Source of the DNA: Polytrichum commune
Taxonomy: Eukaryota; Streptophyta; Polytrichopsida; Polytrichales; Polytrichaceae
Assembly (NCBI GenBank): GCA_950295325.1
Contig: OX485804.1
Coordinates: 23,682,001 to 23,746,000, forward strand
DNA: 64,000 nucleotides
Reading direction: 5' to 3'
Within the stretch, counting starts at the first letter, position 1; every line of letters begins with the position of its first letter. A program made the translations under genes and the position numbers. This document shows, one piece after another, positions 2,853-64,000 of the stretch. The notes beneath the pieces were generated by a model. It did not search any database. It saw nothing but the letters and a program-made list of their open reading frames with translations, and was not told the DNA's origin.

Positions 2853-5477
2853 CATGTGGTCAAGGTTAGAATGAATTGGATTGTATTTATGAAGCCTAGA
2901 TTAGGGAATGGGTTTTATATGTGGAGCATGTAGATACGCTTTGTGTGCTTAAATTTGTTCCATTCAATGTTTATACTTGAGTCCAAGATATTACATACAT
3001 GACTACGGTTTTCAGCAACTATCCATGTGGAGGTATTGTCTCCTCCACATACTTCATGTGGTTAAATGAACCGATAATCACTAGGAGTTTAATTTTATAT
3101 ATATATTTATTTCTTGCTTGCTTTTGCTTCTATTGGTTATTTTTCCCTACTCAAGAGACAATCCTATATTGGGACCTCCTACAAGTTCAATATTTGTACC
3201 AGATATTGTTTCCACATTGATGAGGATTGTGGAGAACTCCATGTGGCACCTTAAATTTAGACTATGTTCCACACGTACATGTCGACACCAATGTTCCATG
3301 GCATCTAGGTTCAACCTGAGTTTCACAAAGGGTAGATTTTCATGAATAAAATACCCAATCCAAATGGCACCACATGGCTCGAACTTCCCCGATAGAATAG
3401 GTTTAGTGAAGATGGACGAAATTTTTTACATCTTTGTTGAAATATCCCCGTACCTTGAAATGGCACGTTGAACAAATCACGAAGACTTTCTTAGAGTCCC
3501 ATCTCCCCATGTGGTTGGAAGGAAACTTACATGGATGCTCTCGATTAGTTGTGATTTCCACTTGCGCATTGATAGAGGTTGCAGGGGTCAAGTGCAATGT
3601 GGCCTGACCTAAATCTATATACAATGAAAGACGTGATGGTAGTGATGGTGAGGTTGTTGCCCTACCGTTCCCCACTGTTGTTGCTTATAAAACAAAACAA
3701 AAAATTAAAAAGAAAAACTATCACATGTCAAAAATTCCCTCCCATAACAAACATTTGACAAAGGAAGAGGAAACAAATGTGGACATGAGGGAGGATGAGA
3801 ATTGCAAAAGGTGGCTATGGTGGGGGAAACTTGGGGGAGGTGGCAGGCATGGCATGGGTGGGGGGACATTATGGTCAGAGGTCATGAGGGGTTTATGAGC
3901 ATGGGAATGGCATGCATTTGTATGCCGGGTACACTCAAGGATAGGGACATATGGTTGCATGAGGTATAGGCTTTGATAACCCCAGATATTGATTGTTATG
4001 CCTAGGTGCAAAGGGGTGGGATGGACAATGAGTTGCTTGGATGTTAATTCATATGCACGAAAATAATGGGCTAGGACAGCAAGGGTCCAAGCTAGTGAGG
4101 ATATGCTAGAGTGTAGGTTGTTGTATCGAGTGGCTACACAATTACAAATGGAGAAGGCATGGTTTGTAGCCACCGAACCTGATATGGGAGTTAAGGTGAA
4201 GGTGGGACGATAGTTTTAGCAATGCCTCTAGGAATGTTGCTAGATTGGAATGCCAAACACGACACATAACTTGGGCATTGGAATCTAACTTTATGAAAGC
4301 AATCACATTTGTCATAATGGTTTGTGTGTCTAAAGACTATTGTGGTTGGTATTGCATTGGGACTCTCGCATTTGTGAAAGGTGTTATTCATTATTTTGTT
4401 TAACTCCTTAGTTTTTGTATATTCATGTTGGACAAACTAAAGATTTTTTTTTTGGATTTTCATAATTGATACATGGTCTTGTAAAAACATGTAGCTAAAA
4501 AAAATTTAAAAAATTGATAGGGTTAAATAAAAAAATGCTTCAAAGACCAATGTATTGTAAAATCAAGGTCATTCAAATTCCTTAACCTTCACACAATAGC
4601 CCCCAATAGGATACCCAATTAATGCAATATATAAGGGTAACTAAACCTCCCATGAATGGTTGGCTACATTTTCTCCTTCATAATAAATGACTTTGCCTTT
4701 GACCAGGAAGAAATCGTCACATATGATCATACCTCTCATCCATAACACACAAAAACCCAAACCCTTGTAGATTTATGCTTGATGCATCTCAAATGACTTG
4801 GACTAAACTTATATGAAGTCTTTGAAGCTGATTCCGGTGTCAAGCCAACTTTTTAATATAAAAAAAGTATTTTCTGAACCTCAAGGGTGTCATATAGGAA
4901 CAAGGGAATTCCCTCTCGCCATCCATAGGCACCACGAAGCTCTAGCTGAGACCAGGGTGGGAGTACAATACAATACAATACATTACAATACTATGAGTGA
5001 TGCATTAGATTAAGTTTGGACAACTCGGATTTTTCAGTGTAGACTTGGTTGCAAAGTGGAGAGTTTAGAGGTGTAGATTGCAAACCAGTCTTTCTTTGAA
5101 GGTCATCACCACACCCATTTCAAGGCATGCAAGAATCGAGTGATTGTTCACAAATTCAACGCAATGAAAAGGCTTGCCATGCATTTCTATGGTCACCTTC
5201 CAAGCATGCAGATGCACAAGTATACATGCTTATGTGACAGCAGCTGCAATCGACAAGTGGCAGTGAAGACTCAACTTCCAGCTACACTAGATTAATGTAA
5301 CTTAAGCTCAAAGCCACAGCTCTCGAAGACAAAGTGTAAGTCTTACATGATCATGTCAGCTTGAGGCTGCAGTTCTCAAAGACGCATGCATATCCTAAAC
5401 CCTAAACCCTACACCACTAACTTAGGTTCAATGAACAGGGAGGAACCGGCTGCTAGTTACAGATGTACCAGTTGAGT

Positions 5478-34296: not shown

Positions 34297-35528
34297 AGTG
34301 ATATGTATTCAGGGAATCTGTGCATTACAGATGGGATCCTTCCAATTTACTGAAAGGAAATATTTAAATTGTTTTACCGAGGCAAATTGGTCCTAATGTC
34401 CAAGTGTGTTTTGTGTTGATAGCTCTTTTGCTTAGTGGTGATTAGTATAGTATCTGATCTTGAAATTTTCAGTTTTATATGACTCTACTAAGGTCATTTA
34501 GCTTCAGCATCTAGGAGCACTTTCTCACTGATCCTAGACTTTTTTTTTTTCTTAATTTTTTTAAAAAACAAGGTATCGACTGTGGCTCATGGCTTTAGCA
34601 CCTATGTGTGATTAGCTTATTGGCCTTTTAACCATTAATTGTCCAGATGATTACGTGGACCCTGGTAAGTGTCATGTGTGGGTATGAAAAGGAGCTGTTG
34701 GTTGTCTGTGTAAGGTGCCATTCAAGGACGAAGTTCCATGGTCAGAGTTTTCATCCTCAGTCAGTACTTCAAATTAGAAGGTCGTGCTGGCATAACTCGA
34801 AGGGTGCACTCTGAAGCATATTTAAGTCATTTGGCATAATCAGACTTTTCACTGTGGTGTGACATGCCTTTGTTTTTTGAATCACTTTTCACAGCACCCA
34901 TACGCGGCTGTCTGCAACGCATCTCTGGTTCATCTCTGGCTCACACCCTCTAGTTACCTGCAGTGCTCTGCCCTATTCCTCAGAGCCTGAAAATCACACC
35001 TGAAATTGTTTCATGCTAACAATGCCAGCCATGCTGCATGTGTTTTGTGTGAGTCTTTCGGTTTGTAGTTTGGAATAAGGGTAAATTATGGGAAACAAGT
35101 GTCCTTTGCTTTAGTGGATGGAGCAAAAAACCGGGCAATGACAGATCCCTCATGTTTGTGCTGCCTCTGGATTAAGTATCATTGAATATGATAAAGAGAA
35201 AACTTTCTGTCCTAAGGCATTCGTGTGGACGATGGGGGTTTGATTTTCTCCTGGCACACAAGTGAGGGTTGTGTCTTAGGGTATCACATAGTCATGGAGT
35301 TGAGGCACATGTTTGTTTCCACATGCATGTATTTTCAATGAACATTTGCTTAAATGGCCTACACAAGTTCCCTGGTGTCATTATGCTGGATTCTGTGAGT
35401 TTGGCTGCAATGCGTTGACATGGTACACAGTGAATTGGGGTTCAGGTAGGGAACCCTATTAAGACATGAAGACAAGAAAAGTAAGTGGATGGTGGTTTAT
35501 ACTTTGAATTCTGTAGATTTTCATTAAT
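34297..35528. other. Spacer and 5' region of the RPN2-like gene
   Basis: No gene was recognised in the 1.2 kb between ERD2 and the RPN2-like gene. A possible 5' UTR intron (TTCAG^GTAGGG at 35445/35446 to CTGTAG at 35516) would end just before the start codon. This is tentative. Confidence 0.4.
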
Positions 35529-38500
35529 ATGGCAATGTCTCGAACAAGGCTCCCCCCTGGGGATTTAGAAAAGGGCAAGTTAGGGAGGGGGAGGGGCAGG
35601 AGGAGGAAGAGGAGGCTCTTGTCTGACAATCTTACAAGCAATTGTCAAGACCAGAAAACGATAGTGCTAAGCACGGCCAGCGGATTGTTGGCCATGCTCA
35701 AGGAGCAACACCCCATACTAAAACTTCATGCACTCAACAACCTGAATGCATGTGTTGACAACTTTTGGCCAGAAATTTCTGTCAACATTAATCAGATTGA
35801 GGTGTTGTACGAGGATGAGCATTTCGAGCATCGAAATCTGGCAGCGTTGGTGGTTTCTAAAGTTTTTTATTATCTTGGAGAACTCAATGATGCTTTATCA
35901 TACGCCCTTGGAGCAGGTTCTCTGTTTGATGTCTCTCAAAACTCTGAGTATGTGCAAACTATGGTTGCCAAGTGTGTGGATGAATATATCTCCATAAACT
36001 TGAGGCAGGAGAAAGGGGAAGAAGAATCTCTTTCTCTGGATCCAAGGCTTGTCTCTGTTGTGGACCGGATGCTGGATCAGTGTTTGCTTGATGGAAAATG
36101 CCAACAGGCCGTAGGCATTGCTCTCGAATGCCGACGGCTGGATAAGCTGCAGGAGGCATTACTTTGCAGCCAAAATCTGGATGAGAGGTTATCGCAATGT
36201 CTCAAGCTTTCACAAACTTTCGTAAGTTGTCGTGAGTTCCGCTGCGAAGTACTTCGGCTCTTGGTTGACAATTTTCAGAAGTTGCAGGAACCCGATTACT
36301 TGAGCATTTGTCAATGCTTGATGTTGTTGGATGAGCCTCAACAGGTGGCAACAATTTTGGAGGAGCTTCTGCAGGGTGGTAGTTCTCAAGTGTTGTTGGC
36401 CTACCAAGTGGCTTTTGATTTATTTGAGAACGAGAACCAAAGGTTTTTAACAAAGGTCAACGATCTTGTTCATGCTTCAGCTTCTAGGCCAGTGAGTTCC
36501 AATGTGACCATGGGTGTAAGCCCATCCAGTGAAGTTTCTCCGCATGTTAGGGTTGATCCTCCTGAGCAAGGGCAAAACACCATGGAAATTCCTGATGAAA
36601 ATTTGCGGCAAACATGCGACTGCGTCGTAACAACTCCCCCTTCCACCTCACAACCAGACTTGCAAAGGGTTAGAGAACGCTCCAAAGGTGATTCTGGAGA
36701 GGCAGAGCATGATGTTGGACATGGCCCCAGGAGAAAGGAAAGAGAAACCTACATAAAGAGATTGAACAAACTGAAGGGCATTCTTATCGGGGATGTACCT
36801 ATCAACCTAACTTTGCAGTTTCTACACAGCCACAATAGGTGAGACTATTCATTTCAGCCGCTCATCCCACAATGAAATGATATTGAGTTTCTTGTGATCT
36901 TTGATTGAACAATTTTTCAAACCTTGGGTACATGTTTTCAAATGATCTTTATTTGGATCTTAGCAAGCATATGTCTAAACTATGCATCGAAGAGGCACAG
37001 TGTTGAAGGCTTTGAACCTTGAGCATCTTGGGGCTTCGTAGTGTCTAACCTTTCAAAGAGGAGCTCAAGGTTCAATGCTCAAGTATGATCTGATTTGTTG
37101 TAAGTCGATGTATGTCCATTTTGAAAGGGTCGAAGTTTTAAATAGTGTTTTTTTGTTTACACTGTTAAGGCGGAACATCAAATTGTTCACATAGTTTGTA
37201 GCATGTTAATATTGAAGGAATTTGTGCATAGTACCTCTTGAAGGCACGACATGATCCCCACATGCATGTAAGGAGTTGAAATTGAAATTTGGATTTCCAC
37301 TATCTTAAGCTATTTTTTTTAGTTCTTAGAAGTGCTTCTTAGAAGTGCTTCTTAATGTGTTGGTGTCAGAAGTCAATTTCTCCTTGCTTGTTCAAGATTA
37401 TACATCAAACACTTGTATGACTTGATGTTATTATATGTCTTGTCACCTTGTTCTCAAGGATATTTTCAAACTCAACATCCACATGACATTTGAAAATGGT
37501 TATTATGGACAGGTCTGATCTCATGATTTTGAAGGCCATCAAACATTCTCTAGAGTCACGGAATAGCATTTGCCACGGTGCCACGATATATATGAATGCT
37601 CTCATGCACACCGGCACCACAGTGGACACGTTCTTAAGAGAGAATCTCGATTGGTTAAGCCGCACGACAAATTGGGCAAAGTTTAGTGCAACTGCAGGGT
37701 TAGGAGTTATTCACAAAGGGCATCTCCTGCAAGGAATCTCTTTGTTGGCTCCTTACTTACCTCAACCAAGAGGTAGTCCATTTTCAGAAGGGGGTGCATT
37801 GTATGCTTTAGGTCTAATCTATGTGAACCATGGAGAAGGGATTAAACACTTCCTTGTTGAGTGTTTACGAAACGCGACACACGAAGTCGTCCAGCACGGA
37901 GCCTGCTTGGGGCTTGGTCTTGCAGGCATAGGGACGGCGGATGACGAGATTTACGAAGAATTGAAAGGGGTTTTGTATGCAGATAGTGCAGTTGCAGGTG
38001 AAGCTGCAGGGATTGCAATGGGGTTGTTATACGCTGGAGCTGGGCCCATGAAAGCAGGGGAAATGCTTGCCTATGTGCAAGACACACAACATGAGAAGAT
38101 AATACGGGGGATTGCGTTGGGGATTGCCCTTACAGTCTACGGGCAAGAAGACGAAGCAGACCCCTTAATTGAGAGAATGACAAGAGATCAAAGTGCATGT
38201 TTACGATACGGAGGGATGTTTGCATGGGCAATGGCATATCGAGGAACTGCAAATAACAATGCAATAAGGCGCTTGTTGCATTTTGCGGTGTCCGATGTGA
38301 GTGATGATGTGAGAAGAACAGCAGTGATTGCCTTAGGGTTTGTTCTCTGTACAGAGCCTGAGCAAACCCCGAGGATTGTGTCACTCCTCGCGGAATCTTA
38401 CAATCCGCATGTACGTTATGGGGTGTCCCTTGCATTGGGAATTTCTTGTGCCGGATCGGGATCCAAAAGAGCAATTGCTTTGCTTGAAACCCTTGTGGTT

Positions 38501-39610
38501 GATCCAGTTGATTTTGTCCGTCAAGGAGGACTAATGGGTATGGCTATGGTGTTGTTGCAATGCACAGAAACACAAGACTCACATGTAGGATGGTTCCGCA
38601 AGCATATTGAGAAGATCGTCAATGACAGGCATGAGGAAGCTATGACCAAAATGGGGGCCATTCTCGCACAAGGAATACTTGATGCTGGAGGTCGCAATGT
38701 CAGTATTTTGATGCAATCGAAGAATGGCCAGTGCCGTATGACTGCTATAGTGGGCATGGCAGTCTTCTGTCAATTCTGGTATTGGTATCCCCTCATCTAT
38801 TTCATCAGCCTCTCCTTTTGTCCCACATCTTTCATTGGCCTCACCGAAGAGCTTCGCATTCCGAAGTTTAACTTCATTTGTGAAGCCAAACCTTCCGTGT
38901 TCGCGTACCCTCAACCACTGCTTGTCCAAGTTGAGGCTCCCATGGCCAAATTCCCCGCTGCAGTACTCTCTGTTGCCGCAAAGAAAGTCCAGCCACTATC
39001 AGAACAGGATCAGAAAATGGAGAGCGTCAAAAATGGAAAGAGGATCATGGAAGAGGCAAGCACATCATATGCTCCTCTATCCAACTCACCCACATTCAAT
39101 GCAAGTACAATGGCTTTTCAAGGTGATTGCAGTATGACCACAAAGGGCGATACTGTGGGGATGCAGTCCCAAGCTGAACAACAGCCTCCTCCTCAACAAC
39201 CAGAATCTATTGCAACAGGCGAGTCTTCGAGGGGCCCGTTCCATCCAGCAAGCTCCATGTCTAATGTGAAGGCAGTCGACCAGGATGATGATGATGTTCA
39301 ACCATGCCAAAGTGCACACTCAGATTCACCTGAACCTAAGTTTCAGGTTCTCCAAAACCCAACTCGTGTAGTGCCGCCACAGAAGAGGTATATCAGTTTC
39401 CCAGACGACTGTAGATTTGTGCCAATACAACGCAAGAAATTACACTCGGGGTTTGTGATGCTACAAGATCTATCACCTTCTGAACCTGCAGAGTACGTGT
39501 GGGATGTGGATGTGTACACTGCAGGGAACTTTCGCAACCCGTTTGGTGCACCGGGAATCGTTCAGGAGAGTAATGACACAAACCTTGTGAACCCCTTTTT
39601 GCATCATTGA
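35529..39610 (+). CDS. Divergent, nearly intronless 26S proteasome base subunit RPN2 (PSMD1)-like protein
   Basis: RPN2 is the large scaffold of the 19S base, built of proteasome/cyclosome repeats, and it docks RPN13. Two exons, 35529-36838 and 37513-39610, join in phase to give 1135 residues. The family starts are clear: SGLLAML near residue 50, DNFWPEIS, LAALVVSKVFYYLGELNDALSYALGAG, ECRRLDKL and YLSICQCLM. After the intron come RENLDWLSRTTNWAKFSATA, SEGGALYALGLI, VQHGACLGLGLA, DSAVAGEAAGIAMG, DTQHEKIIRGIALGIALTVYG and FCQFWYWYPLIYF. Odd features are a Met plus about 45-residue N-terminal extension with a basic run (GRGRGRRRKRR), a Gln/Pro/Ser-rich linker, and a C-terminus that keeps FQVLQNPTRVVP and SGFVMLQDL but ends NPFLHH. 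It lacks the acidic PFEY-type tail. Plant RPN2 genes usually have many introns, so a retrocopy that stayed open and diverged is likely. I use no gene symbol because it may not be the main RPN2. Confidence 0.9.
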
Positions 39611-46784: not shown

Positions 46785-49519
46785 ATGGGGATTGCGTTTG
46801 TACCATGGCAAGTGCAAGTTTTTCCATGACCGACTAGCATATCTAGGTCATATAATTATCCCAGGAGGTTATGAGCCCAAAACAGTGCTCACATGTGTTC
46901 TTAACCTTTAAAGTGCATTAAAACTTAGGCTTTGATATTGCATCAATTATTCTAAAACATAAAAAGAGTGGTGGTTTTGAGTTTAGATTAAAGATAAATG
47001 TAAGGGTAGGTTGTTAGAGTTTTGGTGCTTGTAGGGTGGAATTATTAATTTGGGAATTAGTTAGTGGGTTTATTAAGTTTAAGAGCCTAGGTTAAGTAGA
47101 GTTGGGTTTGATTTTGATTGGAATGGGATCGGTCACTGTTCATTTTGGGGGAGAACACAGTGTTCGCCCTAGCAATTTTCGGATCACTGGATCGGGGCCG
47201 GTTGAGGTGGCTGCCTTCGGCATTCAAACACACACTCGACTAGGACCCGGGGGAGGAGGTGAGCGGCGAAGCTCCACCGCTGGGAGCGTTGCGGCCAGGG
47301 CCTAGGTGGTGGAAGCCTGGGATTGCGGGAACGAAGACTGAGTGATCGTCCAGTGATAGAGGGGCTAAGCTCAACCGAGGAAGGGAGTGAGCGTCTCTGG
47401 ACACGACTTATTCTTGGCCAAATTGAGTAGATAAGAAGCGGCAGCTGGTTGAATCAAGGAGGACAGTAGCTACGGAGGAGTGATTGAGTAAGCTCCCTTC
47501 AATTCCAACAAGATCACTGGCCATTCGAGTGACAGGTAGTGAGGCCAATGCAGGCAATACCGCTCACATTACAAAAATTCTGCCGCCAAGAGTAGTCAGA
47601 CTAGTTCCAAGAATTATATTGGGAGCATGGGGGAGAAAATTCACTGTGCATTCGAGGACAAGATGCCATCATGCCTGCCTGAAGCAAGACATTTTACTCA
47701 CCAAGGCTACCGCCAAGGAGCTGGATTCGGTCAACTAAGGTGTGGTTCAAATTTCCTTGAGTTGGGTCCGAGGAGGAATGAGGTGTTGGGTTCGGCAGGA
47801 GCCGAAGGATGACCCAGGTGAGGGGGTCGCAGGAGGAAGGAGCGAGCAGTCAGTTGAGGCTGCGGTAGGACTGGAAGTAAAGGGGGGCAGATACTCTGGA
47901 GGGAAGGGTCACCGAACTCCCAAAGGCCAGGGAGGTGATAAAAGCTTGGACAGGGGCAAGACGGCGTTCCAGCTGGCCGAGAGTTGAACAGAATTGGACC
48001 CTGTAAGCGGTGACCAAGTATTGAAGTATTATGTGGAATTTAACAAAGTGATAAGGTAGTAAGTGTTGGACTAATTAATGGCATTGCCACCTCAATTATG
48101 GAAGTGGCTGGCATTGATGTTATAAGACAAGTGTTTAGGCTAGTTGGTTAGTTCATAATGTGGGCTTGTAGTGATTAGGGGGTGTAGGAAGTTGCTCATG
48201 GCATGAACCATTTGGGGATCGCTACGAGGAAGGGGAGTATTTATAAATGCTCTTAGCCTTATGTTCTTGAATAAAGTTGTGTGTTCAATGTTCAAGCGGT
48301 GGAAGTATTGGGAATTGGTTCAAGCTCTCAGGAGTTCTAGTAAGCATATGTGAGCCATAGGCTCTCACCCGGACTACGACGCTTAAGGGTGGGGGTTTGT
48401 GGCTGACAGAGGTCTTGAAATGCAACAAACTAAGGTGGATGCTTTACAAAAGATCCCGGCACCAGTCGATGTGCCAAGACTTCGTTCTTTCTTGGGCTTG
48501 GCGAATTACCATTGTTGATTTGTCAAGAACTTTAGCTTGATCGCCAAGCCTTTCAGCATTTTTACGAGCAAGGACCAACCTTGGACTTGGAGTTGTGAGC
48601 AACAACAAACATTCAAGACATTGAAGCAGAGACTGGGTGCCATTCCAGTGCTTAGACGTCATGATGTCTCCAAATCTTTCTAGTTGCACACGGATTGGAG
48701 TTCATTGGGTTTGGGAGCAGTTCTTACTTAGAAGGATGACATTGGCTGGGGGTATGTTGTTGGTTATGCTTCGCAAAGTAACAACATTGCGGAGGCTAAT
48801 TATTCATCCTACGAGGGAGAAACGTTGGCGGCGGTGTGGGCTATTGTCCATTTCTGGCCATATCTCTATAGTCAACGCTTTATTTTAGTGACTAACCATC
48901 ACCTTTTACAGTGGCTCATGAAGTCGTATAAGCTTACTAGCAATCTCGCCAAGTCGGTTTTATTGCTCGAGGAGTACAACTTTGAGGTGGTACTTTGTGC
49001 TAGGATTGCCAACTTGGATGCAAATGGATTCTCACGCAATCTAAGTCCTTTAGATGACGACTTGACTGGAGCCAGGTGGCATGGGGATTGTAATCGAGAG
49101 GCAATTCCAAGTTGGCATGCAATTGCTTACATCATTTTGTTTTCTAGCGTTGCTGTTGAGGTTTTGATTCAGGGCTCAGATGTTGGGACTGATCGACCTC
49201 AAGTTATTGTGGATATTTGGGAGGATCTTCCCGTATTACAGAAGCTTCAGTAAGGGACCTTTCCCTTCTCTATCTCGGTGATGGAAAATGATAGGATTGG
49301 ACATCGAATAATAAACTTCCATTGGGAGAACGGTTTGTTATTTCGATTATGGTTGGATAGACAATGCGTATTGTTCCTAGACCGGACTAGCAGGCCTCCT
49401 TGGTACGGCAAGTGCACAAGGAACTTTGACATTCGGACATATGTAGGACACATTTGATGTTGCGTGGCCAATATTGGTGGACTGGCACGTATCAACAGGT
49501 AGCTGCTTATGTCGGAAGG
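46785..49519 (+). pseudogene. Dead Ty3/gypsy pol fragment: reverse transcriptase, RNase H, integrase zinc finger
   Basis: Gypsy reverse transcriptase sequence reads up to 46869 (LAYLGHIII), is split by the element 46870-48408, and resumes in frame at 48414. Then come RSFLGLANY (RT thumb), an RNase H region with LHTDWSSLGLGAVL, SSYEGETLAAVWAI and TNHHLLQWLM, and an integrase N-terminal zinc-binding stretch (HLMLRGQYWWTG, VAAYVGRC). At 49519 the next element begins, so the integrase core is missing. In-frame stops at 48516, 48681 and 48729, and further lesions near 49430, show it is inactive. The left end is truncated: no gag, protease or LTR was found. Confidence 0.85.
46870..48408 (+). mobile_element. 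TG..CA-type LTR insertion (E1), probably a solo LTR
   Basis: This 1539-bp insertion splits the gypsy frame and is flanked by 5-bp direct repeats GAGGT (46865-46869 and 48409-48413). It starts TATGAGCCC (TG mutated to TA relative to the related TGTGAGCCC at 50951) and ends GGCTGACA. Near the right end is CTCACCCGGACTACGACG, shared with the other E elements. A possible polyadenylation signal AATAAA lies at about 48271. No protein-coding region was found, which suits a solo LTR. The interior is much richer in G and purines than its surroundings. Confidence 0.8.
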
Positions 49520-50209
49520 TGTCGCAACCCTTGCTAGCCCCCTTAACAATTTTACCAATTTCATTTCTAGCAAAGGTTATGAACGCTAAGCCTTTGCATT
49601 CCGCCATGCTAATGGTTAGCTCCTCTTACCCCGGGCCTTAAAGTTCATAAGAGGGGAACCAACCCTCTTACTTTGCTTTCGGGACTCACCCATCAATCGG
49701 TAACCAATTCTTAGATGTGGACTTCCATCCATGTAAATCCCATCTTATGTTGATCATCGCATTGCCGGAGCAACACTACAACAACCCGAACCATACTAGG
49801 CAACTATGGCCTCACATTGGGCCAAAGTCCATGGAGGCTGTGCCATTCGGCCTCAGGTGGGTGAGGCCACACCACCTCACCCATATAAGCCTCTAGGACT
49901 CTACGCGGGGCCCCTACCCCACCGTCAAGAAACCTTTTGTCTCTCTACCAAGAGTTGGGGCCAAGTAGACATCTTTCCTTGGCCGTTGGGCCTAGAAGCC
50001 CTCAGCAGCTTCAAACCATCATAACTTCCTTGTATGATGTCTGATGCTAACAATAAACCACTCCATCTTTATCTACGTTTCACGTAGATGCCGATGCACT
50101 TCTCACTTGCCCCATTTAGGCAAGTATTGAGGAGTTATGCCTGTTCGAACCTTGGCAATTTTGGGAATCACTCCCAGGCATTGCTGTACCAAGGCGTTGT
50201 CCTGGGACA
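49520..50209 (+). mobile_element. Left LTR (690 bp) of a short LTR retroelement
   Basis: Begins TGTCGCAACCCTTGC and ends GGGACA, so it has TG..CA ends. It aligns over its full length with the right copy (50605-50950 plus 53730-54074) at roughly nine in ten positions by eye. CCCATATAAGCC near 49880 is a candidate TATA box of the LTR promoter. It interrupts the integrase zinc-finger sequence of the gypsy element. Confidence 0.8.
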
Positions 50210-50604
50210 TCGCCCCACTCAAATTGCCATAACTCCTAGCTTATACCTCCGATTGAGGTGTTCTTGAGCATTCTAGAATCTACATGCTATAAGCTACGCA
50301 TAGCTCATGGCCCTACACTCATACCTCTTAGTCTCTGTGGGTGGGGGGCGTTCCCAACGCCCATGGCCCTCACCCACACTAGGATCACTTGGGTCCTCTC
50401 ACCAACGGCGCCACAAGTCTTGGGTGTCACTCCGGGGTCCCCCTTGTGCCCATGGTGTTTCAGACACTCCTCATGGAGAGGTGCGCGACACTCACCCCCA
50501 CCAAATAGAATCGATGCCCTCATCGACTATACTCGTAGTCGACACACCAATTCTCAAGTTGCAATCCTCTATGGTGTGGCATTGTGTTTACCTTAGGGCG
50601 TGAC
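50210..50604 (+). mobile_element. Internal region (about 395 bp) of the short LTR element
   Basis: Lies between two 690-bp direct repeats. It has no recognisable gag or pol and no obvious primer-binding site, so the element is non-autonomous and TRIM-like in layout, with long LTRs for that class. Confidence 0.6.
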
Positions 50605-54856: not shown

Positions 54857-55335
54857 CTAAGAGTCAAGGTACTTCAGCAAACCACCTTCCAAAACTTGCT
54901 TCACTTCGTTGAAGCTAAAACTAGCTGCATGAATGAACGTGTCTGATTCTGAGTCCAAACCACAGACTACAGTAAACAAATAGTACAAATGCTTACAGTT
55001 GGCCCATTGACCCTTTTTTCCAATTGCTTTAGTCGCCATGTCCTTGAAGTTAGGACAAGTGCATGCTGGCAGCTGCGAAATCGTCAAGTAGTATTGCTGA
55101 ACCTTTGGGGGCGTGCCGGAATCCAACGAGACGATGCATCCTAAGGCAGGGGCTGGAAGCATGCACAATTTGTGCACTTTGGCTTTCAGTGATAGGGCTG
55201 AGGCACAATTATTGGCGTGTTTTGTTGACGGGGCCTTCTTGTTGCGCCTAATCAACTTCCCTGAACGCCGGGTGGGAAACTCATCCGGATATGCAGGAGT
55301 CGTGTAGCTTGCTAAGTCCAAAGGTAACGGGTGGC
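54857..55335 (-). pseudogene. C-terminal part of a SWIM zinc-finger protein, cut by the CACTA insertion
   Basis: A 3' frame ends at a stop at 54857 and reads DLASYTTPAYPDEFPTRRSG, a basic KLIRRNKK stretch, and then a SWIM-type zinc finger of CxC..CxH form (PACTCPNF, about 18 residues, ANCKHLYYLF). SWIM domains are typical of MULE transposases, FAR1-like proteins and some plant regulators, and bind DNA or protein. The frame stays open right up to 55335, where the CACTA terminus begins, and then meets a stop within the transposon end. The N-terminal part is not visible elsewhere in the window, so the gene is broken. Confidence 0.7.
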
Positions 55336-55552
55336 ACTACAAGAAAATCGACAAAAAACGACTTTGTTTATGATTATTTTTTTAGTCGTTGAGGACAGAA
55401 ATGACTATTATTTTTTGTGTTATTACGGACGAGTTGTAACGGACAGTCAGTCGTTTTGGACGTGACGTCGGAACGCGGATGATATAGTCATTGAGGCTAG
55501 TCGTAAACATGGATGAATGACGTGGCTGACTGTCTATGATGTATGCATTGCG

Positions 55553-55742
55553 TGGCGTTACGTTGTATCCACGTCGACATCCTAGTTGGCACGGGTGCCA
55601 TGTCACCGAACACGTGGCGTTACGTGGAATCCACGTCGACATCCTAGTTGGCACGGGTGCCATGTCATCGAACACGTGGCGTTACGTGGACACCACGTCG
55701 ACGTCCTAATTGGCACGGGTGCCATGTCACCGAACACGCGGC
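55553..55742. repeat. 62-bp subterminal tandem array rich in CACGTGG motifs
   Basis: CCACGTCGACATCC recurs at 55569, 55631 and 55693 (period 62). Each unit holds GGCACGGGTGCC (palindromic) and CACGTGGCGTTACGTGG. Such arrays bind the TnpA-type protein in En/Spm elements. That role here is inference. Confidence 0.85.
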
Positions 55743-56460
55743 GTCCAGGTCAATTGGCCACGTCATCCAGCCACGTGGCATGAATGGTATATGTCGGTGT
55801 GCGGGTTCACATGTGGGCAAGTGATATATCGCCACGTGTCCATTATGTAGTCGTTTTGTAGTTTTTATGTAGTCGTTTTGAAGTTCTTATTTTTTTATTT
55901 TGTAGTTATTATGTGGTCATTATTTAATCGTTTTATAGTTCCTATTGAATCGTTTTATAGTTCCTATTGAATCGTTTTATAGTTCTTCTTTAATCATTTT
56001 CTAGTTCTTATGTAGTCGTTTTCTAGTTCTTAGTTAGTACTTGTGTAGTCATTTTATGGTTGTTGAACAGTACATGCCGCAGACGTGAAGTTGAATGGCG
56101 TGGCCTTCTGTGTTCTAAATGACTAAGAAATCACTATTGAACAACTACATTCTAGTTATTAGAGCTCGGGTTAATGCCATCTTTGAACACATTCAACCAT
56201 TGTTTATTCTTTTCTTAGTTGTGCATATCATTGCGTAAGCCGAGGTGAGATGGGTAGCATTGTGAATGCATGCAACCACCATTCAAACATTGCCATGCAG
56301 CCTCAATATGAAAGCATGAATCATACATGAAACACAACACATCTTTGAATTTGATTGTGGGGTTCCCAACAAAATATGTAAGAGTGTTCATATGTGGGTT
56401 CTCAGTGTTTAGTGTAGGGAAGACCTTTATCTACTCCATGCTAAGTACGTCTAAGGAAAT

Positions 56461-59400
56461 TCACGCTGCTCTCAAACTCCTCTCATTCCAAAGTGTGTTG
56501 CCTCCCACTACGTCTTTAATCACCCACTGGTCTCCATCCTCGTGTGGGTAGGCAAGCTTCACATCACCTATGTGAGCAGTTGTCACATCAACTTTATAGC
56601 AAAATTGCGGAATCACCTTGAAGTGGAACTTGTCCACACCCCCTACGCCACTGATTTTACCGGTTGCCACCTTGCGTCTCTTGTTTTTCGGGCTCATGAG
56701 GTGCACACATTGCCCAACATTAAATTGTACCTACACACCATCCTCACAACAATCAAATGCACACCCAATGAACTGTAGTGATCATTACAACAATGTTTCA
56801 GCAATGGATGCCACTACTAGAACATGTATTGCCCAACATTGAACTGCACCCATACACCATCCACAACACAATCAATGGCATACCTCATACAATGTAAGTA
56901 CCTCATACAATGCTGAATGACTGCTTAAGGACGGCTTAAGGACTGCTGAATGACTGCCGAATGACTGCCGAATGACTACTGAATGACTGCTCAATGACTT
57001 CCAAAAAGTTCAGGGATGGATTGGACAAACCGGACGTGCAGGCAATGTTGCATTGCCTGATGTGCTATCCCCTGTTTTCGCACCCCTTCCCCGCAATTCC
57101 ATCCTGTTTGAACCACCAATGTCACCTATCTTACTTGGTAACACGATCTTGGGGTTTTTGCTCTCAGATTCCGGAGATTCTCCCTCCCCCACTGTCGCAA
57201 CAAGGGGGGCATCCTCAGCCAACACAACAACTTCTCCGCCCTCTACATGCTCACTCTCCACAATTTGCTCCAGCCCTTTCCCTCCTCCCAAACTCCCACC
57301 TCCACCACTGATGCATTCCCCACTCCCACCTACCTTCTGTGCTTCTCCCCCATTTGCGTTTTCCACATTCTCTCCCTTCCCCCCCCCCCTCTCCACATTC
57401 TTCCACCCCACTCCCACCCATTGCAATGTTGGGAGGGCGGGTGCCATGTTCTACAACCCCACCTACAAGAGCTCCAACTTCCTGCCTCCCCTCATCCGGA
57501 GTTATTGGCTGCCCAGTGGCCTCCGCTGCTGCAGCTCGCCTCTTCACACCTCTCTTTGTTGTCGTCCCTTTCTTTGGTGCATTCTCATTTGCTCGGCCCT
57601 TGCTTCCCACATGGCTGTCCTCTTGAGACATGGTAACCCCTTTCAACTTGGCATCTTTGCTTCTAGTGAACCTAGTATATACCAAGGGCTCGTGCTCATC
57701 TTCGCTACGAGCGTCTGTGTCATCCACCACATCTATTGGCAACGTAATGGAGGTTCCTATGCCAGCCGGGCGGGATTGGGCTTGATTCTCGCACGTAGAC
57801 TTAGGAGCGCTTCCATGAATGCCCTCGTTGTTGACTGCCGTGTTGGGGTCGCTCACAATGGTCTGACCCCGTAGTGTAGTAATTAGGCTCGTCACCATAG
57901 TAGCCAAGCTATTCAACGTCAGCGTGTTTGCTTTCAGAGTTTGCTCATTGCTCAACATCACCTCAGACATTTGATGCCTAAACTCGTCCTGGGTTAGCTC
58001 CATGGCAGCAATGCGTGCTGACATCCTTCCTGACAGGGCTTGCTGTGCACGCCACAAACAAAGACTTCCAACCTTAGAGTGGGATCCAGTTGGGGTCTGC
58101 TTTAGCATTCATTTCAATACAATTTCACCACTATACAATGACACGTGGACTACTGACTGCAGCTACACAATGACTCATTAAGCACTAGGTGCAACTACCC
58201 AATGACTTAAATACAACTGTCAATACATTGCAACAACAACACATACAGCAGGATCTACCATTACATAATGACACATAAAATACATGATACGACTAAACAA
58301 TGACACATAAGACATTGAATTACGACTGCACAATGACTAGTATTGGCTACTAGAAACGACTACACAATGACACATATTGTGTAGGATACAACTACAGAAT
58401 GAAACAAGTATCACTCCATACATACAACTGAACAACAACAAGTAAAATGCACATGCAAACATTTTTTGGATCTTACAGAGGTGCATGCCCCAATCTGCTC
58501 TGATTCCTGCAGTTCCTCCGCTATTTCCGTAATCCCGGGACTCCTCTGTCTCTTCTTCCTCTGTGATCATGAACACACGCTCAATTAGTGGCCCACATTT
58601 CAAAGGCACCAAGCCCAGTCCAACATAATGGCGAAGGGACACTAGAAAGTCATTACTAATCATTGCATACACAACACTTACCAACTGCGCTTCTTTCCCA
58701 GCTTTGCCACCCCGCCCAACATTGGACTGGTTCTTCACTGACTTCCTTGCATTTGCCATTCTCATTGCCTTTTGCTCCGTTTCTGGTTTGGACCAGTACT
58801 CACAAAGACGTGCCCACTGATCGGGCTCAATGTAAACCGGGCATTGTTTTTTTCCACTCAAAAACCATGCCTTCATTTTAGACCTCTCAGTCTTCATCTG
58901 CCTCTTTACTGCATTCTTGAATCCCCTCTCTGATAGTTTGTTCCCCACATATTCAAACTCATTGTCCAAAGCATTCCTTAGTTTCTCAATGTTGCAAGGG
59001 GATTGGTCCTTCCACTCCACACAACTCACGTCCAATATCCTAGGGATGAGGCTCCTAAGTGCTTCGTCAAATTCATTCTTACCTTCGCAATCTCCATCTA
59101 TGCCTCCACCTGCCTTGACACTCACCTTCTGCGGTTTCTGTCCCACAGCTTTCCTTGCATCCACTGACTCCTCTATTTCCTTCTTATGCGCTCTCCTCGC
59201 TGCCCTTGCCTCGCTCTCTGGCTTCAATGTGGGACCCTCGTTATTAGGGGCCGCGGGAGCTTGTTGTGGCTGCATCCAAGGTCCAGGAAATTGTTGAGAC
59301 ATCATCCATGGGTTGGGCTGACCCATCATCCACGGGGCCTGTTGCCCCATCATCCACTGTTGTTGTTGTGTGGATGGCGGCGCCATCCATGGTTGTTGCA

Positions 59401-60646
59401 TCCAGGAGGAATTGGCCGGGGGTGCGGCTTCAGTTTGAGGAGGAGCTGTTGTTTTTGGTTGGGAGACGTGCGCCTTCTACATTGAACCAACATTCTCATG
59501 AGCTACTTAATGACTGCTTAATGACTCAGAGACTAACCGGCAATAAAGCATGGAAATTACCTTTTTGGCTGGGCTCTTCAATATTTGCCTTGTGCGCCTC
59601 CTTGTTGCACTTGACCCTGGCAGATCCGAGGTGCCTCTTCGTAGTGAGTGAACATCTTCATCTTCTTCCTCATCTGCAAGTGGCTCACCAACCACACAAT
59701 CAGGTGCGTACGCACAGTTGCGGTGGCAATGACGATCATGCAGGGTAGAGAAAAGTCACCGTCCAGAAATGTACCGAAATTGGAGCCACTAGAATCTGCC
59801 GTGCCTGTTCAATCAAAAATTGCAACGTGGTTTAGAGGGGTCGCTTCAAAGGGATCAGCTCTAGTGCTCAGCCAATAAAAGATGTTAGTTGAAGGCTACA
59901 AACCCTTGTATATTGTTCCACCTTTGTGAATGTTGCAATGTCCCGGCTCCATGAATGCTGGAGCTCATGGAAAATGTCAGTTGGTCAACAGTCCCTACGC
60001 AATATATGATGTAGGGATCATATAGGTGCGGTTGGTCCTAGGATTTAGGGAATGTCTGGGTTTTGAATGACTATGAAATACTACTTAATGACTAGTTTGC
60101 AACTAGTGGATGACTGTTGAATGACTGCTCACTGAGTGGTGAATGACTGCTGACTAATGCTGAATGACTAGCAAATGACTAGCAAATGACTAGTTGGATA
60201 TGCAGGCAATGACTAGTTAAAGACCCTAAAACCACATGCATAGTCTCAATCCAAAACTTAATATGAAAAATACACACTATGATAGTGCTAGTGTAACAAC
60301 ATTGAAAAGCTATAAATCCATGCCAAAAATTGTATCAATGTTGCAATATTGTGGACTTACAAAGCTGTATCTCCATTCCAAAAATTGTAGACCCCTTCTC
60401 CACTCACTTACCCATGTTCACATTTCATATCAACCTCGTCATGGTTGAGGACGCTCACCTGGACTGTACTCGTCCTCAGTCTTTGTGTCTAGTGATTCCT
60501 CCGAAAGATGCACCATATCTTGAAGATCTTCCCGAGCCTCCAAGGTTGCAGTTTTCCGCAGTACTCTGTGGCTGCGGCGCACTCGTACCCCCGGTGCCGC
60601 CTGCCTAGCGATCGAAGCTGACTTCACTGCGCCGAAGCTGTCACGC
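56461..60646 (-). CDS. En/Spm-type (TnpA / plant transposase_24-like) gene of the CACTA element, partial model
   Basis: Three consecutive exons join in phase: 60459-60646 (ends EDEYSPG), 59561-59673 (an acidic DEEEDEDVHSL stretch, then RRRTRQILKSPAKK) and 58477-59476. The last encodes a Gln/Met/Trp/Pro-rich low-complexity region (WMMGQQAPWMMGQ), a basic segment, and a domain with FKNAVKRQMKTERSKMKAW, WARLCEYWSKPETEQ and MRMANARKSV. The last stretch resembles the plant Ptta/En/Spm transposase family. Further frames at 57251-58072 (MELTQDEFRHQM, then KKGTTTKRGVKRR) and 56461-56706 (NKRRKV, VIKDVVGGNTLW) are probable downstream exons, but I could not fix their borders. Exons upstream of 60646 are not identified. 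Intactness is unknown. Confidence 0.6.
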
Positions 60647-61267
60647 CTGCATTGAGCACAATGGATAGCATGCAACAATCTCTCAATAATTGAACGATAC
60701 AAAATGAACAATACATAATGAACAATACAAAATGACATGTACATCATGACCGATACAAACCTTCATCACACCGCATTCTCAGCATATCAAAATCACCCCC
60801 TAAATCAGCTAAGCATCGCTTGCTTATGAGCAAATAATTGTGTCTTCACTAAGAAAAAATTCAAGACTAAGTTGAATGTGGGATATTTTTGTAGAATATC
60901 CACTTTTCCCTGTCAAAGCATGCCAGTTGCCACATGGGTCAGAAAAGAAATTTAGAGGACTGCAAATTTATGGGGCTTTAGGACAACAAATTTAGAGGAC
61001 TGCAAATTTAAATGGCTTGCTCCCTAAGCATAAATACACACCAATCATGCTAGATATTCCATATAACATACAATCTAAGGTGCTTATAGGTTAATCAACA
61101 AATGAATTAACCACTTCGTTTCAATACGAACCTAAACAGAAAAAGACCAGCAAACACTTTGTACACTCAGCAAATGTCCATCTACAAGAACTGTAAAGCA
61201 CTACATAGTAATCCCAGAGAATACAGAATTGCAAATCTGGAGTATTCAAAAAGCACAAAGAGCTTGC
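60647..61267. other. Sequence between the transposase exons and the host-gene fragments
   Basis: No gene was recognised. AAATTTAGAGGACTGCAAAT occurs twice (about 60950 and 60988). No CACTA right terminus is present here. Confidence 0.5.
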
Positions 61268-61377
61268 CTTCAGTCTAAATGCCCATAAGAAGTGACTCTG
61301 TTCCAGTCGAGGGATATTTCAATTTTCGAGCCTCCAACTCAGCCATGCTAAATGACTTGACAGCTCTTGCTTCCCAG
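61268..61377 (-). pseudogene. Single exon of a plastid Clp-N (ClpT1/ClpT2-type) protein, with a premature stop
   Basis: On the minus strand a GCAG acceptor is followed by WEARAVKSFSMAELEARKL and then KYPSTGTESLLMGI. This is the start of the Clp N-domain of plant ClpT/ClpC-type proteins, which associate with the plastid Clp protease. The codon after LLMGI, normally Leu, is TAG (61275-61277), one base from TTG. The frame then continues TEG into a possible GC donor (GAAG^GCAAG at 61268/61267). No other ClpT exon was found on either side, so this is an isolated, probably captured fragment. Confidence 0.7.
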
Positions 61378-61659
61378 CTGCAATGAATAAGAAAGTAGTG
61401 AGGCTAATAATGGTTGTGCCCAACTAAGCTAGGTGATCGAGCAGTCTACCAATCCTCAACCAATTGTTTTTAATTATGAATATATTATAAAGTGTACCAA
61501 CATAAGTTCTTTGGGAGCTGTAGAACAGATCCATACGTGCATTTACATGCTACTATGATAATGAGAATATCGCATGAGTCTGGCTTAGACTATTTCTCTG
61601 CATTTATCCAGTTTTTTTAATTGGAGTAACAACAATCTCTAAGATGTCCCATTCTTGTA

Positions 61660-61736
61660 ACGACAAAGGGAAAAATAATGTACTTACGGATACTATTGAA
61701 GGGCAATTGTATCTGAGTTTCTGCACAGCACACCAC
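61660..61736 (-). repeat. Duplicated exon-like segment, copy 1
   Basis: About 76 bases nearly identical to 62979-63056. On the minus strand it looks like an exon: GCTGTGCAG acceptor, a short open frame (KLRYNCPSIVS), and GTATCC^GTAAGT donor. I do not recognise the peptide. Confidence 0.6.
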
Positions 61737-62194
61737 CAACAAAAAGTCACAATTTGACCAAAATAATGCATTTAGAATCTACAGCCTAAACCATTTGTTG
61801 ACCCTTGATCTACACTCCAATAGGAAGAAGGTGTAATACAGCTTCCACGTTCATGGCTCATTCTTTGTGTGCCCAAACCAATTCTGCATAGTATAATTTG
61901 AGGGTAATTTAGTTTCAAGAAGTTATACTCCAAGTAATGTAAAGGAAGTACAAAACTTGTATACAGGAGACAGGGTAGACAAAGGTAAGTTGGATTGCAC
62001 ATCGGTGGATAAATATGAGTACCCAGGGAAGAAATACATTTTGTTGCCTTGATTTGAATGAGCTATTTTCCCATTTCCTGTGCATCGTCACAATCACAAC
62101 GACTGTTAAGTACATAATCGTAGTAAAATGATGGGAAATCACTCTGCTGGTAGAACACTAACAAAAAACATTTGCTGACTCACACTACACCTGC

Positions 62195-62380
62195 ATCACC
62201 TACTAGTGTGGGTTACCATTTGGAGTTACTCATTGCTATAACTTTTTAAAAGTTATATCATGTTCCTGGATGTGCAGAGTCCAGATTAACTATTTAAGTT
62301 ATATGTGTAAAAACTTATATACTTGTTATGAAGTTATAACATTGTGTAAATCTAGATGATAACCCACACTAATAGGCGAT
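62195..62380. mobile_element. Small MITE with about 25-bp terminal inverted repeats
   Basis: The left end reads ATCACCTACTAGTGTGGGTT and the right end, reverse-complemented, reads ATCGCCTATTAGTGTGGGTT. A further inverted pair inside (AACTTTTTAAAAGTT; GTTATAAC) suggests a foldback. It is AT-rich with no coding content. No target duplication was seen. Confidence 0.65.
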
Positions 62381-62588
62381 ACCAGTGTACTTGTGTATAT
62401 TTAAATCTAAACTACAGTGACACACTTCCAAAATTCCAAGAGTATGATCAAGAACATAATTGCAGAGTCTTGATTGTTGATTTACATAATTAAAAGATTT
62501 TTTGGCCCGCTTTTGCTGTGCTAATGAAGAGTAGAAGTGTGTGTCTAAAAAGCAGGAACAGGAAAAGGAAAAGGAAAAGGACACGCAC

Positions 62589-62675
62589 CAAGATCAACAT
62601 CTCGAAATGGGCTACCACTTGCAAAGATGATATCATGTCCGGTGTACTGAAAAGCTTCTTTCGCTGTGCATTCAG
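62589..62675 (-). pseudogene. Single exon of a malic enzyme (NAD-ME-like)
   Basis: On the minus strand, CTTGCAG^CT opens a frame reading (A)ECTAKEAFQYTGHDIIFASG and then SPFRDVDLG, with a GTGCGT donor after G at 62589. This is the malic enzyme segment around the conserved FASGSPF. Malic enzymes decarboxylate malate to pyruvate. The form is closer to plant mitochondrial NAD-malic enzyme by my reading. No neighbouring malic enzyme exon (such as NQANN..FPG) lies on either side, so it is an isolated fragment. Confidence 0.75.
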
Positions 62676-62978
62676 CTGCAAGTCACTCCAAAGGTATCAA
62701 GATCAAATTCCATAATGCAACTCCTTGCACTAAATCAAACCAACAAACATACTTCAGATGCTATAATCCAGATATAATCAAATAAGGAGATGCCAAGGTA
62801 TAGAAGGAGCACCGTTTGTAGTAGGGTGGCAGCCCAAGACCAGCTAGGACATTGCCCCTAGAACCTGTATACATTCATAAAGTAACAGGTTCCTTAAATA
62901 GATTCTGTAAGTTTGAACTGGTAGATATCTGAAACTTACGCCAATAATGCCAGCAGAAGCCCACAGTGCAACCAAATA

Positions 62979-63056
62979 AGGACAGAGGGAAAAATAATGT
63001 ATTTACGGATACTATTGAAGGGCAATTGTATCTGAGTTTCTGCACAGCACACCACC
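62979..63056 (-). repeat. Duplicated exon-like segment, copy 2
   Basis: Near-identical to 61660-61736, but the donor is changed (GTAAAT instead of GTAAGT). Directly downstream on the minus strand, up to a GTAAGT donor at 62939, a frame reads LVALWASAGIIG. This recalls a membrane segment of CURT1-type thylakoid proteins, but it is too short to assign. Confidence 0.5.
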
Positions 63057-63332
63057 TTTGTAGACAATCAAAAGGACAACTTTCTAATGCAAATTGCTTC
63101 CGAAAATGAAGAGAGCACTCACAAGAAGTGTCTAACAAGTGGGACCTCTTTAGAACATGCTCATTTTCAAAGAGGTTATTTAAGAAATTCAATGCATGCT
63201 TAATGTATTTATACATTAATCTAAATACCTACAGAAACAAGTGTAGTCAATTTTACTATCTGCATACCAATTCACTCAGTACAATTCTGTTACTCAATTA
63301 CATTAGATAATCTGAAATACAGACAATGGTAC

Positions 63333-63479
63333 CTGCGAGATAAGCGGCTCCGCTTCAGTTCGTTTCACGAAATGAATGGAATTGCGTAATAAGGAAGTTG
63401 ATTGATCACCCAAGAGCACCTCCCCAATATCATCCAGCACTCTCACTTGAATATATGGATCTTTTGGTGGTGAAGCATC
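63333..63479 (-). pseudogene. Single exon of GINS complex subunit PSF1 (C-terminal B domain)
   Basis: On the minus strand, ATATTCAG^ opens 49 in-phase codons, DASPPKDPYIQVRVLDDIGE, then VLLGDQSTSLLRNSIHFVKR and TEAEPLISQ, and closes at ^GTACC. This is the C-terminal domain of PSF1, part of the GINS ring that activates the MCM helicase at replication forks. Its own sequence looks undamaged. However, the exon-like sequence just upstream (ending GGCG^GTAAGT at 63552/63551) does not encode PSF1, and the expected last exon (GLMEE..) is not visible to the left. It is either a captured exon or an exon of a gene with long introns running past 64000. Confidence 0.7.
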
Positions 63480-64000
63480 CTGAATATAAATATTTTTCAG
63501 AACAAATGAAGAATATATCCTATGATTAGTTCCACTCATTGTGAACTTACCGCCCACTTAAGGCCACTTTACACTATGGCCAAAGGCTGTGAGGGCCCTT
63601 GAAACTCATCCAAAGGCTGTATGATGGTAAAATGTTGGAACCTAAATTTCCTTCTCCACTCTGAGAGCATGAAATGTACAGTTCTGAATGCCAAATCAAT
63701 TCAAGTCCGTAACATTCAGAAAAATGTAAAGCAATTCTAAGGGCTTACTTAAGAACCCAAATATGACCAAGGTGTAAGTGGAGTTTCAGTATTTGTATAT
63801 CTTATAAGTGGAGTATTTTCCATTCAAATATGTAGATGTTTTGAAGATCCCTTGAAGATCCCTTGAAAGATTCTAAACAACACACAGCATAAAGATGTTG
63901 TGTGATGATCAAAGAACAAACACCATAAAGACCACACGATGTTTGAAAGAGATTGGAGTACTACGTCCTCAAATTCTATCATCTACTTCACACTCGATAG
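63480..64000. other. Right edge of the window
   Basis: No further PSF1 exon was recognised. A short duplicated GAAGATCCCTT occurs near 63843-63865. Confidence 0.5.

Follow-up and report, generated by a model that had tools for sequence, protein, structure and literature searches.

CACTA elements that carry fragments of host genes are already known. Tgm-Express1 in the wp allele of soybean, a CACTA element of 5.7 kb, holds five unrelated host gene fragments, for which chimeric splicing was shown (PMC1947982). The CACTA elements reported from Chenopodium combine coding domains with captured gene fragments in a preferred region, and captured tandem repeats are reported as well (PMC8978399). Pack-TYPE elements are described as non-autonomous, without transposase, and as explained by a model of neighbour fusion (PMC8903248). 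The soybean CACTA element Tgmt* has a length of 20.5 kb and one large gene with tnp2 and TNP1 domains (PMC2613891). As to the route of capture, the Pack-TYPE paper and a review favour the fusion of neighbouring insertions (PMC8903248; PMC13317346), and the Chenopodium paper cites for fragment capture a published mechanism by Rubin and Levy (PMC8978399). Templated repair in CACTA capture is not claimed here as unpublished. The mechanism of Rubin and Levy is reportedly abortive gap repair.

The window that we analysed is a stretch of 64,000 nucleotides from Polytrichum commune (C2:23682001-23746000 of a 408 Mb assembly with 64 contigs). The block of gene fragments is close to the right-hand border of the window; the genome beyond was included, with the window numbering carried on past 64000 (window-frame coordinates). 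In a DNA search of the assembly with the 2501 bp query 61200-63700, we observed among the best 40 of 1000 candidates at least five places where the whole query was matched at 99-100%: the window itself (copy A of copies A to E), C5:6.99 Mb, C5:27.87 Mb, C4:22.83 Mb and C2:45.22 Mb. Further partial matches, among those listed, each span a part of the query. The gene-fragment block is a multiplied unit and no local oddity; over 4430-4441 aligned bases of the stretch 61050-65490 the five copies differ pairwise by 0.405-0.745%. Very probably, the block is the mosaic cargo of a CACTA element, built stepwise within the element by break repair and then spread by transposition.

Like Tgm-Express1, our element is a CACTA with unrelated host gene fragments that include exon and intron parts; however, the soybean element has 5.7 kb as compared with the 19.6 kb of our copy D with its TNP2 domains, and chimeric splicing, shown there, is a possibility here. 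The Chenopodium elements share with it the coding domains and the preferred region of captured gene fragments, but in the account given of them each has one or two short pieces of a single gene, whereas the mosaic described here matches six or seven loci. Pack-CACTA elements are alike in having CACTA-type ends and captured host gene fragments in the interior; still, Pack-TYPE elements are said to be without transposase, whereas copy D has (possibly active) transposase domains, and the joins in our cargo lack the neighbour-fusion pattern. Tgmt* is similar in size and in having tnp2 and TNP1 domains; its abstract makes no mention of a mosaic cargo, and the single gene reported there is to be compared with a TNP1-like ORF and TNP2 domains on opposite strands here.

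The carrier is a CACTA element. Comparison of flanks placed the left terminus CACTACAAGAAAATCGAC, common to the copies, at window position 55335; the right end GGTTTGTTGTAGTG, common to copies D and E, is situated 19.5-19.6 kb from the left end. Searching with this right end also located its counterparts downstream of copies A, B and C; 37 of the 42 listed matches reach the last base (40 of 84 candidates scored). The terminal inverted repeats (TIRs) are of the CACTA type (CACTACAAGAAAATCG left, GTTTGTTGTAGTG right), agreeing exactly over the first 8 bases and partially after that. Target site duplications (TSDs) of 3 bp were perfect in four of the five copies (A TGG/TGG, C TAA/TAA, D ATG/ATG, E ATT/ATT) and imperfect in copy B (CCC/CCT). 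In copy A the TGG at 55332-55334 is matched by a TGG behind the right end, which is located at C2:23766440, some 20 kb beyond the window; the left part of the element occupies 55335-64000 on the plus strand. The right CACTA terminus, which the sequence-only reading had expected beyond 64000, has thus been located. Copy A (C2:23737335-23766440, 29.1 kb) is longer than copy D through later insertions, C2:23762001-23766299 being outside the stretch read.

Either CACTA or Helitron had been named initially as the carrying transposon, and the TIRs together with the 3-bp TSDs identify CACTA. Helitrons are not known to have TIRs or TSDs; their ends are 5' TC and 3' CTRR with a hairpin. As the mobile unit carries both TIRs and 3-bp TSDs, a Helitron is not needed to explain the carrier.

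TNP2 transposase domains were found in copy D (19.6 kb); Pfam matches on the plus strand of its right part are Transpos_assoc (2.5e-8), Transposase_21 (9.4e-61), DUF4218 (3.2e-32) and DUF4216 (1.2e-11). A TNP1-like ORF on the minus strand at 58337-59476 shows a weak match to Transposase_24 (Ptta/En/Spm) with an E-value of 0.0025 and 18.4 bits, below the cut-off of 28.7; this ORF and the TNP2 domains are on opposite strands. The CACTA transposase-like exons seen previously in the window sit inside the element. The stretch 55335-60960 is a backbone common to relatives with other cargo: seven relative matches end exactly at 60960, and a relative at C2:56.3 Mb extends slightly beyond. On the far side of the cargo CACTA-type sequence is found from 65554. 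Repeats of 11-22 bp at 56911-56999 and 60110-60193 are candidates for subterminal repeats.

Several other features of the region were recorded. A repeat of ∼975 bp at window positions 49519-50490 and at window-frame 75060-76032 occurs beside or inside copies B and C, also inverted. Inside the element, a tandem array with units of ∼190 bp is located at C2:23748800-23750660 (L001 from about 4800; window-frame 66800-68659); similar array sequence (up to 92%) was seen towards the ends of C2, C3 and C4 as well as on the small contigs C62 and C64, and the array-like sequence recurs with a spacing of ∼13.8-14.1 kb. The idea that the tandem arrays at window-frame 66.8-68.6 kb are rDNA spacer found no support, as 5.8S rRNA matched two places, neither of them there (39 of 8957 candidates scored). 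Immediately to the left of the CACTA end, where the element is inserted, the ORF 54857-55336 has a SWIM-like zinc-finger pattern and is presumably MULE-type transposase-like. Two long plus-strand ORFs in 35517-39610 (441 and 707 aa) appear to resemble proteasome subunit RPN2.

We found that the cargo is a mosaic matching six or seven separate loci, so that the claim of at least three unrelated host gene fragments in the block holds. The matched bases make up 4710 of the 4882 in the slot between 60960 and 65843 overall, and 4301 of 4882 if only loci other than CACTA are counted. The likely source loci are 91-99.4% identical to the pieces, with introns kept; since introns are kept in the pieces, these were copied as DNA. 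Further malic enzyme, CURT1-like, ClpT-like and PRPP-synthetase-like exons are readable in the source loci. Capture of host gene pieces, as first proposed, is supported by this picture: a search for the source genes across the assembly led to loci elsewhere that hold further exons of the same genes, and the flanking introns match those preserved in the captured pieces. An arrangement of the remaining exons nearby with long introns was not found; the other exons are distant, the nearest (malic enzyme) being 2 Mb away.

The PSF1 exon recognized by the sequence-only reading is present on the minus strand at 63479-63333, with a Pfam PSF1_C match (E-value 6.3e-22) and its own AG/GT splice borders intact. 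Together with flanking introns it makes up a piece at 63125-63629, whose parts match L021 (C5:18.38 Mb) at 97.6% over 413 bp (63217-63629) and at 96.7% over 90 bp (63125-63214), 174 bp of the donor being absent inside. L021 also has an upstream PSF1 exon with a sub-threshold Sld5 match (E-value 0.00087). A genome-wide Pfam search, in which genes match exon by exon, found nothing for the Sld5 domain; the PSF1 donor was found by DNA search.

The malic enzyme exon is likewise confirmed, at 62675-62589, within a Pfam Malic_M match (E-value 3.7e-6 for 62682-62545). The piece to which it belongs (61867-62904, minus strand, ∼1.04 kb with introns included) is 91.9% identical to L023 at C2:21740909-21741963, and presumably derives from an NAD- rather than an NADP-malic enzyme. 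It contains the consecutive exons 62675-62589 and 62077-62023, both with intact AG/GT borders, and the first bases of a third (61883-61868). The statement that no fragment has its normal neighbour exon was therefore wrong for malic enzyme. A Pfam search of L023:2309-2551, a badly placed stretch, returned one weak irrelevant match only. At 62393-62184 the malic-enzyme intron holds a MITE-like repeat with inverted halves, with dozens of listed matches at 66-96%.

A shorter piece, 62901-62976 on the minus strand, matches L022 (C5:39596575-39596650) at 98.7%, i.e. with one mismatch in 76 bp. It corresponds to the segment noted as possibly CURT1-like; we take the exons of L022 to be CURT1 from their sequence features, and Pfam gave no match for the one L022 CURT1-like exon searched.

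On the minus strand at 61050-61868 there is a ClpT-locus piece with 97.9% identity to L025 (C2:28505451-28506269) and 93.5% to L027 (C2:15.56 Mb). The ClpT-type Clp-N exon described initially is confirmed as a ClpT-like exon: 61377-61268 is 99.1% identical over 110 bp to L025 and L027, and the next exon of L027 gives a Clp_N match below threshold (E-value 0.011). Pfam gave no match either for the exon 61377-61268 or for the ClpT exon L027:2968-3246, and the name ClpT is in part an assumption from sequence features. An 80 bp ClpT-locus duplicate on the minus strand at 62977-63056 is identical to 61658-61737 at 77 of 80 positions. In L025, L026 and L027 the counterpart of both 63056-62977 and 61737-61658 is located upstream of the ClpT exon; the unknown exon described initially as duplicated is indeed a duplicate, but of ClpT-locus DNA without signs of an exon.

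Next to this duplicate lie 69 bp (63055-63123, minus strand) of what is presumably a PRPP-synthetase-like intron, 100% identical to L025 and L028 and 98.3% identical over 59 bp to L029 (C6:21.77 Mb). The possibility that the join of 63123-63055 with 63056-62977 is a spliced exon pair, i.e. an RNA-level capture, was rejected, because L025 has no GT after the first part. A second mosaic, with PRPP-synthetase-like sequence joined to ClpT-locus sequence, was observed in L025 (C2:28502000-28510000) and L028 (C1:36800500-36803000), which are 99.4% alike over 1.2 kb across that join. The ClpT and PRPP-synthetase pieces may be second-hand, from the existing mosaic L025 rather than from genes, because both resemble L025 more than they do intact genes.

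The rest of the cargo begins with sequence at 63629-63757 common to a related CACTA region (L034, C6:19.196 Mb; 94.6%). It is followed by two pieces of a C3 locus (L033, C3:44.53 Mb) at 63756-63844 and 63897-64222 (91-96%), which start inside the window, and by two plus-strand pieces of a BTB gene (L032) at 64226-64849 and 64850-64994 (99.4 and 99.3%); another exon of L032 has a Pfam BTB match with an E-value of 5.2e-16. Then the C3 locus is re-entered (65020-65559), its identities overall being 91.1-95.5%. Within the C3-locus piece, a short repeat at 63901-64000 had 28 further matches at 79-85% (40 of 1328 candidates scored).

With the BTB gene included, co-orientation of the fragments, another claim made for the block, is incomplete: of the six gene pieces to which a strand could be assigned (C3 is not among them), five are in minus and one, BTB, is in plus orientation. 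Co-orientation is weak evidence. The malic-enzyme piece (91.9%) and the C3 pieces (91-96%) differ from their presumed sources by up to 8-9%, as compared with ∼1-3% for neighbouring pieces. They may be older captures, or the true sources may be elsewhere; an older malic-enzyme capture fits poorly because the ClpT piece that encloses it differs from L025 by only 2.1%.

Of the 13 joins that we counted, four are skips inside a single donor. Eight joins are free of filler, with overlaps of 2, 4, 0, 2, 1, 2, 0 and 6 bp, and five have fillers of 1, 2, 3, 25 and 52 bp. The overlaps, taken from BLAST ends and accurate to a base or two (the last one adjoins an alignment gap), sum to 17, where random blunt joining at equal base frequencies would give 5.3 (P = 0.0006, or P = 0.019 with the five filler joins counted as zero). 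The 52 bp filler has a 17 bp stretch in common with the beginning of the BTB insert. In the 25 bp filler there are stretches of 11 and 10 bp from both of the pieces joined; similar matches of 8-10 bp to other loci were seen, and the 11 and 10 bp matches may be due to chance. Two donors were re-entered behind the point of exit: the C3 locus around BTB, where the insert is flanked by a 230 bp C3-locus duplication (identical at 226 of 230 positions), and the ClpT locus on either side of malic enzyme and CURT1, where the flanking sequence is the 80 bp duplicate.

These joins and flanking duplications suggest templated break repair, through either template switching or the repair of staggered breaks, a mechanism that we infer from the scars. 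The mosaic would have grown stepwise within the element, in a central slot that has the TNP1-like gene on one side and TNP2 on the other. In the repair of double-strand breaks or excision gaps there, short stretches of unrelated loci would have been copied in and joined by microhomology or templated filler; transposition would then have carried the finished patchwork to at least four further sites. Twelve of the 13 joins are within the aligned stretch 61050-65490 and are common to the five copies; given that the copies differ by so little, assembly preceded spreading.

The backbone is common to many places in the assembly. The slot was viewed in three relatives (F at C4:8.55 Mb, C2:67.43 and C5:38.17) and in part of C6:19.19, with donor searches made for F and C5:38.17. 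Relative F has CACTA ends, with ATA on both sides, and matches copy A on both sides of the slot; the slot itself holds 5.4 kb of other DNA that matches several loci piecewise, a different multi-locus mosaic. One locus matching the cargo of F, at C3:1.53 Mb, is apparently a second copy of much of the F mosaic. In the relative at C5:38.17 Mb the slot holds 3.15 kb matching C3:41.5 Mb. From these few cases, i.e. two relatives, the slot appears to have been filled recurrently with captured DNA.

A different history is offered by the Pack-CACTA route, where two related elements happen to be close to each other and their outer ends mobilize both, along with the DNA between. The neighbour model was proposed for elements whose interior holds less-repeated, presumably captured DNA, as is the case here (PMC8903248), and the single 3.15 kb piece in the C5:38.17 Mb relative would fit one event of neighbour fusion. 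However, in the five copies and F (A, B and C being read in part) a scan in both orientations showed exact CACTACAA or TTGTAGTG at the ends only; with two mismatches allowed in 13 bases, there were a few internal matches, and those in the cargo of copy A (62728 and 62814) fell within the malic-enzyme piece, not between pieces. One join of neighbours predicts neither pieces from separate loci nor pieces of only 69-90 bp, and re-entry of two donors behind the exit point would be unexpected from it. For our mosaic we regard this route as unlikely.

We give a lower probability still to the cargo having formed first as a Helitron, a Pack-MULE or another element that was later inserted into the CACTA. 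The join shared by L025 and L028 (99.4% over 1.2 kb) does point to another, possibly mobile, mosaic in the genome. Nevertheless, all five full-length matches among the candidates scored are inside CACTA elements, and the sequences around the cargo ends (250 and 200 bp) did not share any exact inverted match of at least 8 bp. The best direct match between them is 8 bp, a length reached by 161 of 292 random pairs (55%); the control started from 300 draws, and 292 remained after application of the distance rule, a number calculated back from the fractions.

Selection on the chimeric cargo as a functional gene or a source of regulatory RNA is more improbable again. The AG/GT borders of PSF1 and of two malic-enzyme exons are intact, and if the two malic-enzyme exons and the ClpT exon were spliced, native frames would be kept as far as the nonsense codon of ClpT; by chance a join keeps native frames about one time in three. 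The fragments of Tgm-Express1 in soybean are reported to be spliced into chimeric transcripts (PMC1947982). Against this, the ClpT exon has a nonsense codon in five of five copies, with a second one in copy D, none of the three frames stayed free of stops when PSF1, both malic-enzyme exons and ClpT were spliced in silico, and the malic-enzyme exons do not continue the PSF1 frame. A nonsense-bearing cargo is common to recent copies, and such sharing needs no selection. We saw no indication of a working chimeric gene, and the cargo most likely has no function as protein; chimeric RNA through splicing, or a supply of small RNAs, is the most that it might yield.

An assembly artefact with wrongly joined contigs, an outcome that had been named as refuting the first interpretation and for which we found no supporting point, is highly improbable, as the same joins are present at five separately placed chromosomal sites with different flanks and target duplications.

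The break-repair reading of the cargo suggests a wider idea for the family, which we put forward tentatively and which may well prove wrong: its slot could be a repair-prone, standing site of exon assembly, where template switching among unlinked loci would create mosaics that are then broadcast by transposition, with the transposase kept.

For gene annotation the element carries a warning, in that intact PSF1 and malic enzyme splice borders exist inside a mosaic with a nonsense codon. The route by which CACTA elements capture gene fragments is less clear than the existence of such elements. With 13 readable joins, source loci, varied slots and five copies, both models of capture can be compared join by join, and the element is an unusually clear example of how such patchworks may arise.
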